Under the pieces are notes generated by a model. It searched no databases, was not told the origin of the DNA, and saw only the letters and a program-made list of their open reading frames with translations. Shown here in pieces: positions 9,400 to 48,145 of a stretch of DNA of 64,000 bases. A program made the position numbers and the translations under genes. Positions within the stretch are counted from its first letter, which is position 1. Every line of letters starts with the position of its first letter. This stretch comes from Streptacidiphilus sp. ASG 303 (GTDB lineage: Bacteria > Actinomycetota > Actinomycetes > Streptomycetales > Streptomycetaceae), in the NCBI RefSeq assembly GCF_020991365.1, contig NZ_JAJLRA010000001.1:362142-426141 (forward strand), in the 5' to 3' direction.

Positions 9400-9536
9400 G
9401 CGCGCCGCCTCTCTGGTCGGTGGTTCCGTGCGCGCGCCGTCCGGACGGGTGACGCGACGTGCGACGACGGTACAACGCGCGACGGGGAGGGCCGGATCAG
9501 GGGACCGGGTCGGGAGGGGCGGGAGCGGCCGGGTCC

Positions 9537-9627
9537 GGGGCGCGGGCGGCAGGACGAGCCGGGGCGCGGGGGGTGCCGGGGCGCGGGCGGCAGGACGAGC
9601 CGGGGCGCGGGGGGTGCCGGGGCGCGG
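9537..9627. repeat. 41-bp tandem repeat, 2.2 copies, upstream of lnt
   Basis: Two identical 41-bp units at 9537-9577 and 9578-9618 (each beginning GGGGCGCGGGCGGCAGGACG) are followed by the first nine bases of a third. They lie in the 956-base non-coding stretch 9400-10355, which otherwise holds a leftward promoter, an inverted repeat and a 16-bp repeat. No open frame there looks protein-coding. Confidence 0.9.
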
Positions 9628-45210: not shown

Positions 45211-45401
45211 AGCGGCGGTCGTCCTTCGGGTAGGTCGGTCGGGCACGGCGGCGGCCGCTCCTCCCCCGTCGCGGCGCGCCGAGGGAAGTGGCCGAGTGTA
45301 GACCTGCCCACTGACGGCGGGCCGGAACACCGCGCCGTGGTGACGACCGTCTCAGTGCAGGTCACAGCGGATTGCGGGGCGTCGCGGCAGAGGGGTGGCA
45401 C

Positions 45402-45478
45402 GTCACGCGGGGGCGCGGCGGAAGGGGCCGGGAGGCGGCGTCACGCGAGGGGCGCGGCGGAAGGGGCCGGAAGGCGGC
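45402..45478. repeat. 38/39-bp imperfect tandem duplication
   Basis: GTCACGCGGGGGCGCGGCGG... (45402-45439) is repeated with few changes as GTCACGCGAGGGGCGCGGCG... (45440-45478), followed by the rsmB terminator. It lies in the 348-base gap 45211-45558 between rsmB and the ABC operon, which contains no gene. Confidence 0.75.
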
Positions 45479-45484
45479 GGAGGG

Positions 45485-45558: not shown

Positions 45559-47007
45559 TCAGGACGTGCGGCGCAGCAGCGCCAGGTACATCGCGTCGGT
45601 GCCGTGCAGGTGCGGCCAGAGCTGGACGTCCGGGCCGTCGCCGAGGCCGGGGAGTCCGGGCAGCAGCGGGCGGGCGTCGATCCACTCGGTGTCGGTGCGG
45701 CCGCGCAGCACGTCGTCGACGACGGAGCGGGTCTCGGCCAGGTGCGGGGAGCAGGTGGCGTACCCGACGACGCCGCCGGGCCGGGCCGCGTCCAGGGCGG
45801 AGCGCAGCAGGCCGCGCTGGAGCGGGCCGAAGGCGGCCAGGTCGTCGGGGCGGCGGCGCCAGCGGGCCTCCGGGCGGCGGCGCAGCGCGCCGAGGCCGGA
45901 GCAGGGCACGTCGACCAGGACCCGGTCGAAGGTGCCGGGCCGCCACGCCGGGCGGGTGCCGTCGGCGGTGACGACGGCGTACGGGCCGGGGTTGCCGTCC
46001 AGGGCGCGGGCGACCAGGCGGGCGCGGTGCGGCTGCTTCTCGGAGGCGACCAGGGCGGCGCCGCGGCCGGCGGCGAGGGCGGCGAGCAGGGCGGCCTTGC
46101 CGCCGGGGCCCGCACAGCCGTCCAGCCAGAGCCGGTCGGGGCCGTCCAGGGGCGCGGCGGCCAGGGCGGCGGCGACGAGCTGGCTGCCCTCGTCCTGGAC
46201 GCCGGCCCGGTTCTCGCGGACGGCGTCGACGGCCGCCGGGTCGCCGCCCTCGGCGAGGCGGACCGCGTACGGGGACCAGCGGCCGGGCGCGGTCGTCTCC
46301 TCGGGCAGGGAGGCGCGGATCTCGTCGGCGGTGGAGCGGCCGGGGCGGGCGACCAGGGTGACCTCGGGCCGGGCGTTGTCGGCCTCGAGCAGGTCCTCGA
46401 TGCCGGCGCGGCCGGAGGCGTCGGGCTGCCAGCGGCCGAGGGAGTCCCAGAGGGCGGAGACCACCCAGCGGGGGTGGGAGTGGACGACGGCGAGGTGGTC
46501 CTCGGCGTCCTTCTCGTAGGGCGGGGCGACCTCGGCCAGCCAGCCGTCGAGGTCGCGGGCGGCGATGCGGCGCAGCACGGCGTTGACGAACTTGGCGCGG
46601 CCGTCGCCGAGCACCACCCGGGCCAGCTCCACGGTGGCGGAGACGGCGGCGTGCGGGGGGATGCGGGTGCCGAGCAGCTGGTGGGCGCCGAGGACGAGGA
46701 CGTCCAGGACCGGCGGGTCGACCTCGCGCAGCGGCCGGTCGACGCAGGCCGCGACGACGGCGTCGTAGGTGCCCTGGCGGCGCAGCGCGCCGTAGACCAG
46801 CTCGGTGGCCAGGGCGGCGTCGCGGCGGTCGAGGCCGCTCCTGCGCTCGGCCTCGCGGAGCAGGGAGGGCAGGATCAGGTTGGCGTAGGCGTCGCGCTCG
46901 TCGACGGCGCGCAGCGCCTCGAAGGCGACCATGCGCGCCGCGTCCTTCTTGGGGCGGCGGTACGGGCGCGGGGCGCGGCGGCCGCGGGCGGGGGGCGGGG
47001 TGGTCAT
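45559..47007 (-). CDS. rsmB: 16S rRNA (cytosine-967 C5) methyltransferase RsmB
   Basis: This 482-residue SAM-dependent rRNA methyltransferase has an N-terminal NusB-like RNA-binding domain (about 25-165, ARMVAFEALRAVDERDAYAN, ELVYGALRRQGTYDAVVAAC, KFVNAVLRRIAARDL). A catalytic Rossmann domain (about 190-480) carries RAGVQDEGSQLVAAALAAAP, LWLDGCAGPGGKAALLAALA (SAM loop) and the two catalytic Cys in VLVDVPCSGLGALRRRPEAR and GVVGYATCSPHLAETRSVV. The N-terminal 20 residues are Arg/Pro-rich. It follows fmt with a 202-base gap holding the 19-bp array, an arrangement common in def-fmt-rsmB operons. Confidence 0.96.
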   Translation of the reverse strand: MTTPPPARGRRAPRPYRRPKKDAARMVAFEALRAVDERDAYANLILPSLLREAERRSGLDRRDAALATELVYGALRRQGTYDAVVAACVDRPLREVDPPVLDVLVLGAHQLLGTRIPPHAAVSATVELARVVLGDGRAKFVNAVLRRIAARDLDGWLAEVAPPYEKDAEDHLAVVHSHPRWVVSALWDSLGRWQPDASGRAGIEDLLEADNARPEVTLVARPGRSTADEIRASLPEETTAPGRWSPYAVRLAEGGDPAAVDAVRENRAGVQDEGSQLVAAALAAAPLDGPDRLWLDGCAGPGGKAALLAALAAGRGAALVASEKQPHRARLVARALDGNPGPYAVVTADGTRPAWRPGTFDRVLVDVPCSGLGALRRRPEARWRRRPDDLAAFGPLQRGLLRSALDAARPGGVVGYATCSPHLAETRSVVDDVLRGRTDTEWIDARPLLPGLPGLGDGPDVQLWPHLHGTDAMYLALLRRTS

Positions 47008-47045
47008 GCGGGGCCTCGCGGGAAGGTGCGTCGGATCACGGATCG

Positions 47046-47159
47046 GTGCGGCGGTGCGGGTTCGGTGCGGCGGTGCGGGTTCAGTACGGCGGTGCGGGTT
47101 CGGTGCGGCGGTGCGGGTTCGGTGCGGCGGTGCGGGTTCAGTACGGCGGTGCGGGCAGG
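47046..47159. repeat. 19-bp x 6 tandem array between fmt and rsmB
   Basis: Six head-to-tail copies of GTGCGGCGGTGCGGGTTCG start at 47046, 47065, 47084, 47103, 47122 and 47141; the last diverges at its end. Copies 1-3 (variants ...TTCG, ...TTCA, GTA...) are repeated exactly as copies 4-6, a 57-bp superunit. It lies between the fmt stop (47210) and the rsmB start (47007), so the co-transcribed mRNA would carry it. Confidence 0.95.
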
Positions 47160-47209
47160 CGGGGGCGGGAAGGGGTGCGGGTCCGGTGGGGCTGGGGCGG
47201 GCGGCCCGG

Positions 47210-48145
47210 TCAGGCGCCCAGGAACTCGCCCGACCCGATGCGGACGCCCCTGGCCCAGTCTCCCGCGCCCATCCGCCTCTTGCCCTGCGGCTGGACGTCG
47301 CCCAGCTCGACCTCGTGGCTGCCGGTGCCGACCCGCACGCTGTTCTTGGCGACGGCCAGTTCGCCGGGGGCCAGCTCCGCGCGGTCGGTGAGCAGCCGGA
47401 CGGGCCCGGCGAGCTTGAGGCGCTCGCCCCGGAAGACGGTCCAGGCGCCGGGAGCGGGGGCGCAGCCGCGCACCACGCGGTCGACCCGCAGGGCGGGGGC
47501 CCTCCAGTCGACGCGCGCGTCCTCGACGGTGATCTTCGGGGCGAGGGTGACGCCGTCGGCGGGCTGCGGGACGGCGTGCAGGGAGCCGTCCTCGATGCCG
47601 TCCATGGTGGCGGCCAGCAGCCGGGCGCCCGAGCGGGAGAGGCGGTCGAGGAGTTCGCCGCTGGTGTCGGTGGGGCGGATCTCCTCGGTGAGGACGCCGT
47701 AGACCGGCCCGGAGTCCAGGCCCTCCTCGATGAGGAAGGTGGAGGCGCCGGTGACCTCGTCGCCGGCCATCACCGCGTGCTGCACCGGGGCGGCGCCGCG
47801 CCAGGCGGGCAGCAGCGAGAAGTGCAGGTTGACCCAGCCCAGCCGCGGGACGTCGAGGGCGGCCCGGGGCAGCAGCGCCCCGTACGCGACCACCGGGCAG
47901 CAGTCCGGGGCGATGGCGGCCAGCCGCTCCAGGAAGTCCGGGTCGCGGAGACGGGCGGGCTTGAGGACCTCGACGCCCGCCTCCTCGGCCCGCTGGGCGA
48001 CCGGGCTCGCCACCAGGCGGCGGCCGCGTCCGGCGGGCGCGTCGGGCCGGGTGACGACCGCTGCGACCTGGTGCCGGTCGGAGGCGAGCAGGGCCTCCAG
48101 CGCGGGGACGGCGACCTCGGGGGTGCCGGCGAAGACGAGCCTCAT
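47210..48145 (-). CDS. fmt: Methionyl-tRNA formyltransferase
   Basis: This 311-residue enzyme formylates initiator Met-tRNA using 10-formyltetrahydrofolate. Motifs: [40 protein letters not shown], the folate/catalytic segment [20 protein letters not shown] (Asn, His and Ser-Leu-Leu-Pro), [20 protein letters not shown] (catalytic Asp) and [10 protein letters not shown]. The C-terminal OB-like domain binds tRNA. It is downstream of def (85-base gap), the two forming the classical formylation/deformylation pair. Confidence 0.97.

Follow-up and report, generated by a model that had tools for sequence, protein, structure and literature searches.

A nested tandem array in the fmt-rsmB spacer of a Streptacidiphilus genome, one minisatellite among many in its spacers

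Background

What is a tandem array of six 19-bp units doing in the short spacer between two translation-related genes, and does it matter to the gene that follows it? The array lies in a 64,000-nucleotide stretch of contig NZ_JAJLRA010000001.1 of Streptacidiphilus sp. ASG 303, hereafter referred to as the window. It resembles bacterial intergenic minisatellites or VNTR loci, such as the MIRU-VNTR loci of mycobacteria, in being composed of near-identical units arranged head to tail in a spacer, in being restricted to one lineage and in its nested duplication. MIRUs constitute a dispersed repeat family; unlike them, the array has a unit that is not dispersed, and it is extreme in GC. Prokaryote satellites are surveyed in the accessible part of PMC6749651, and no paper on this array was apparent among search results for tandem repeats of Streptomyces or Actinobacteria.

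Here we analyse the array, its spacer and the corresponding spacers of related genomes. The explanation we favour, with a probability of about 0.68, is that the array is a species-specific minisatellite without sequence-specific function, whose role would go no further than that of a passive, structure-free linker within an mRNA read through from fmt into rsmB.

Structure of the array

The first-pass annotation had placed the array in the gap between co-directional translation-related genes, and these are fmt and rsmB, both on the minus strand. Gene calls come from a codon-usage script rather than from annotation. The upstream gene, fmt (47210..48145, minus strand), encodes methionyl-tRNA formyltransferase and matches TIGR00460 with 225.9 bits, above the cut-off. 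The downstream gene, rsmB (45559..47007, minus strand), encodes the 16S rRNA C967 methyltransferase; its best matches are the RsmB models PRK14901 and TIGR00563, under the curated cut-offs of those models. The spacer of 202 bp consists, in the direction of the mRNA, of a C-rich part of 54 nt after the fmt stop (47156..47209, minus strand; C 35, G 12), the array itself (47043..47155, minus strand; 113 bp) and a segment of 35 nt ahead of the rsmB ATG (47008..47042, minus strand), the presumed ribosome-binding region.

TRF finds the array at periods of 19 bp (5.9 copies) and 57 bp (2.0 copies, 100% match), and by unit listing it amounts to 5.95 x 19 bp or 2 x 57 bp. Its TRF score is 226, compared with a best score of 82 when the window was dinucleotide-shuffled 20 times. 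The six-copy 19-bp array with a 57-bp superunit that was first described is thus real, while the limits given for it, 47046-47159, are off by 3-4 bases: the sixth unit retains 18 of its 19 bases and the array ends at 47155. On the minus strand, which is the mRNA sense, the units follow each other in the order B A A B A A'. The A unit is CCCGCACCGCCGCACCGAA, and the B unit, CCCGCACCGCCGTACTGAA, departs from it by two C/T changes. A can itself be written as C + CCGCACCG + CCGCACCG + AA, an 8-mer doubled inside the unit, giving three nested levels of duplication (8, 19 and 57). The proposed duplication of a three-copy block holds, both triplets being identical wherever both have bases. The mRNA strand, previously described as C/A-rich, is better called C-rich (C 62, G 24, A 23 and T 4 of 113). 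With head-to-tail copies above chance and a non-coding position, the array has both hallmarks of an intergenic minisatellite.

It is highly improbable that the six copies arose during assembly from a smaller repeat. In favour of such an artefact, the genome is a draft of 200 contigs and 6.99 Mb, and contigs of a congener (G002) terminate in or beside the same spacer. However, an array of 113 bp is short, this one occupies the middle of a 624-kb contig, and its units vary at two sites according to a regular pattern.

More remote still is the idea that the array is coding, either as an N-terminal extension of RsmB or within a frameshifted fusion of Fmt and RsmB. The 57-bp superunit corresponds to 19 codons and keeps the frame, the frame of rsmB stays open over the 762 nt that precede the ATG, the entire array included, and the spacers of 202 nt here and 61 nt in another congener (G001) differ in length by a multiple of 3. 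Yet an open frame upstream of the downstream gene is ordinary, being found in 65 of 106 similar spacers and in 68% of shuffles, and no in-frame ATG, GTG or TTG lies upstream of 47007, the first start. The codon score in the rsmB frame is -0.41 per codon, with no gene piece scoring lower (mean +0.58), and every one of the six spacer frames has a negative score. We rejected the coding reading on this score.

Distribution in relatives

By Fmt, Peterkaempfera griseoplana is the closest named relative (93%), and the window probably comes from a Peterkaempfera (Streptomycetaceae); no paper bearing the name Peterkaempfera was among the results of a search for literature on its genome or GC content. 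Two further genomes of the genus, G001 and G002, were compared, each species being represented by a single genome. The order fmt-rsmB is found at 108 of 110 loci (L009-L118, counting the window's own); L011 and L039 show one of the two genes followed by a contig end, and gave no spacer. The spacer of G001 is 61 bp long and has no array, and it largely matches the last 35 bases of the window's spacer. In G002 the contigs stop in or beside the spacer, and the 28 nt visible past the fmt stop comprise 18 C and 4 G.

A search for the 29-base unit junction, allowing at most 1 mismatch, found it in 1 of 394 family genomes, the window's own. Together with the arrayless spacer of G001, this bears out the recent origin suggested by the first-pass annotation. 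Instead of a fixed copy number and constraint pointing to a known motif, we found a sequence that is not conserved and an array region with no Rfam match up to E = 1; an Rfam element was accordingly rejected. The unit had also been considered as one that might recur elsewhere in the genome. This is not the case, as the 19-mer has a 0-mismatch match at the fmt-rsmB locus only and the other places are degenerate: looser look-alikes occur at 16 other places in the same genome (71-86% over parts of a 201-base query). With its exact match confined to this locus, the 19-mer does not form a family of the MIRU kind, and a dispersed element was rejected.

Other fmt-rsmB spacers have peculiarities of their own. 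Two Streptomyces loci, L070 and L083, carry tandem repeats of about 75 bp with GCGCAGTTCCCCGCGCCCC, a core also present in L053. Long gaps separate the two genes at L056 (2297 nt), L081 (1436 nt) and L016 (835 nt), which suggests inserted genes or elements.

Tandem repeats across the spacers of the genome

We counted repeats with a TRF score of at least 60 in spacers of 15 nt to less than 1500 nt, dropping shorter or longer ones, in an 800-kb sample of the window's genome (G000; L128-L147 and L168-L187). Such repeats are present in 177 of 536 spacers, compared with 20 of 536 after base shuffling. An array that had looked like a peculiarity of fmt and rsmB therefore belongs to a genome in which about one third of the sampled spacers carry tandem repeats. 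The window alone contains 53 TRF rows scoring at least 60 (mean in shuffles 1.95), which merge into 36 arrays, 21 of them chiefly in spacers, though 84% of the window is called coding. One spacer array lies immediately downstream of rsmB (window 45401-45479; 39 bp x 2.1, 95% match) and another at window 9531-9627 (41 bp x 2.4, 98% match).

Repeat-bearing spacers number 30 of 275 in G001, 27 of 147 in G005 and 10 of 123 in G011. G018, from another genus (L188-L207), has a share similar to that of the window's genome, 77 of 268, without raised spacer GC. The G000 sample has a GC content of 76.5% overall, 76.0% in coding sequence and 79.1% in spacers; in the four other sampled genomes spacer GC is equal to or slightly below coding GC. 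Among 127 orthologous spacer pairs shared with G001 (median protein identity 86%), the spacer is longer here in 92 and shorter in 33. Repeats occur in 46 of the 127 here and in 13 of the 127 in G001, with 5 shared, and the GC content is 80.1% versus 73.6%. The array is thus a lineage-specific minisatellite, one among many produced by a wave of recent spacer duplications. Loss of NucS, the actinobacterial mismatch-repair nuclease, was considered as the cause of this wave and rejected, a NucS match being present in all three genus genomes.

The spacers also show a compositional trend. In a k-mer test from which the array spacer itself was excluded, CCGCACC was the top over-represented 7-mer of same-direction spacers in G000 (100 of 312, 35.1 expected), and it is biased to the sense strand, its reverse complement occurring in 47 spacers. 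Whichever way the genes point, the sense strand in the 800-kb sample has more C than G (0.438/0.365 between minus-minus pairs, 0.400/0.383 between plus-plus pairs). Because the bias is stronger in minus-minus pairs and is unclear in two of the four other sampled genomes (G018 and G005), the C excess may, with low probability, stem from the replication strand.

CCGCACC is found in every unit of the array, and its abundance elsewhere, along with a regular spacing of 19 bp that approaches two helical turns, could be taken to mean that the array is a set of DNA sites through which a regulator or nucleoid protein controls rsmB. We consider this very unlikely. The unit junction is absent from all other genomes among the 394 searched, no known motif could be named for the 19-bp unit, and the sense-strand bias of CCGCACC is more in keeping with RNA composition than with a DNA site.

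Predicted structure of the spacer RNA

Folding was compared among same-direction spacers of 60-300 nt. The 202-nt spacer has a minimum free energy (MFE) of -0.156 kcal/mol per nt, against a mean of -0.550, and is the least structured of 223. Its folding z-score was +3.70 to +3.87 in two runs, with -0.48 for the antisense. The arrayless 61-nt spacer of G001 also ranks 1 of 120 by MFE per nt, and 11th of 120 by z-score (z +0.58 with 200 shuffles). Ranked by C minus G, the fmt-rsmB spacer of the window comes 5th of 313 and that of G001 1st of 161. Beyond the genus the pattern is weaker, the G011 spacer ranking 15 of 47 by MFE and 4 of 47 by C minus G. That the least-structured rank recurs in two species, despite differing spacer length and sequence, suggests that the composition is constrained and not fully neutral, which counts against a purely passive linker. 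A search of the spacer for a terminator-like GC-rich hairpin followed by a T run found none, and an intrinsic terminator was rejected on this ground.

Promoter motifs and probable read-through

For the comparison of promoters we used 96-100 fmt-rsmB spacers, each taken from the fmt stop as far as the first residue matched to RsmB, and a few rsmB codons are included in some of them; two source sets overlap, L024 and L045 at least seeming to be one contig, and kinship is uncorrected. Of 96 such spacers, 67 are less structured on the sense strand than on the antisense. The element GTAsGCT occurs in 64 of 100 (relatives L012-L118) against 1.4 expected in shuffles, and usually precedes the matched part of rsmB by 57-105 nt. 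It resembles a Streptomyces -10 element (TANNNT), and the conserved element is probably the rsmB promoter.

GTAsGCT was not found in the spacers of the window or of G001. In the window, no TANNNT occurs in roughly the last 300 nt of fmt or from there to the rsmB ATG, and the spacer has no match to a sigma-70 promoter, so that the array was rejected as one. TANNNT is missing from 21 of the 100 spacers as well; promoters lacking TANNNT exist, which counts against a reading in terms of read-through. Spacers without GTAsGCT are less structured than those with it (-0.312 versus -0.416; 35 versus 61 spacers, p 0.002, kinship uncorrected) and more biased to C over G (0.107 versus 0.039; 35 versus 61, p 0.001, kinship likewise uncorrected). 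Since they are, the data fit a change in some lineages in which rsmB would have passed from its own promoter to read-through. The literature search found nothing usable on fmt/rsmB transcription in S. coelicolor. An effect of the array on rsmB mRNA, raised by the first-pass annotation, is possible.

Rho prefers C-rich, unstructured RNA, and its action would hinder read-through. The main rival to the passive linker is accordingly that the array is a rut-like segment on which Rho would be loaded once ribosomes leave at the fmt stop, attenuating rsmB transcription. We regard this as unlikely, if deserving of weight. The array is like rut sites in its excess of C over G, low structure, length of about 110 nt and position soon after a stop codon, and a Rho gene is present in the genome. 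Scoring followed our own coding of RhoTermPredict step 1, with the sequence criteria (78 nt, C/G above 1, regularly spaced C) given in the accessible part of PMC6407284; the array was given 100-nt flanks and the other spacers 60. The best 78-nt window has a C/G of 3.27 with C at 11-13-nt steps and ranks 14 of 313 spacers on this first step alone. A C/G of at least 3 is reached by 25 of 313 sense spacers, compared with 2 of 313 antisense spacers and 2 of 443 gene pieces.

By C/G (3.27) and folding (z +3.87) the array thus fits the sequence description of a Rho utilisation site, which is a permissive one: a C/G of at least 2 is common, in 126 of 313 spacers and 118 of 443 gene pieces. The accessible part of PMC12207403 suggests that Rho use may be heavier in Streptomyces. 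Together with the corresponding part of PMC8269248, it suggests that Rho-dependent ends may be common there, and the two describe 3' ends within operons that have little structure and high read-through. Unlike at rut sites, the gene downstream of the array seems to need read-through, and the array sequence is not conserved. Strong termination would leave rsmB silent, since no promoter belonging to it is visible here.

Discussion

In the minisatellite and passive-linker explanation, the array would have grown by successive tandem duplications, through replication slippage or unequal recombination: an 8-mer doubled within the 19-bp unit, the unit brought to three copies and the resulting 57-bp block doubled. 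The spacer would already have been C-rich and unstructured before the array grew. In this genus rsmB has no recognisable spacer promoter and its transcription probably reads through from fmt, which would make the spacer part of a two-gene fmt-rsmB mRNA. A C-rich, G-poor repeat would form almost no hairpin, and would neither stop transcription nor hide the rsmB start. Counting against this account, the duplication history is reconstructed from one assembly.

A broader and more doubtful proposal is that, in this lineage, C-rich units of the CCGCACC type, tandemly duplicated on the sense strand, build transcribed spacers as structure-free RNA that replaces hairpin terminators and promoters. An extremely GC-rich genome could not easily keep such terminators and promoters, and the structure-free spacers would serve as Rho-loading or read-through linkers. 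If this were true, the fmt-rsmB array would be its purest example, replacing a lost rsmB promoter.

The array is a candidate marker for strain typing. In both samples no same-direction spacer is less structured than that of fmt-rsmB, which offers a simple test of how the spacers of operons stay transcribable against a background in which nearly every random sequence would fold. The wider point is that, within one genus, the spacers of one genome exceed those of its congener in length and in GC (80% versus 74% for orthologous spacers), and greatly so in repeat content.
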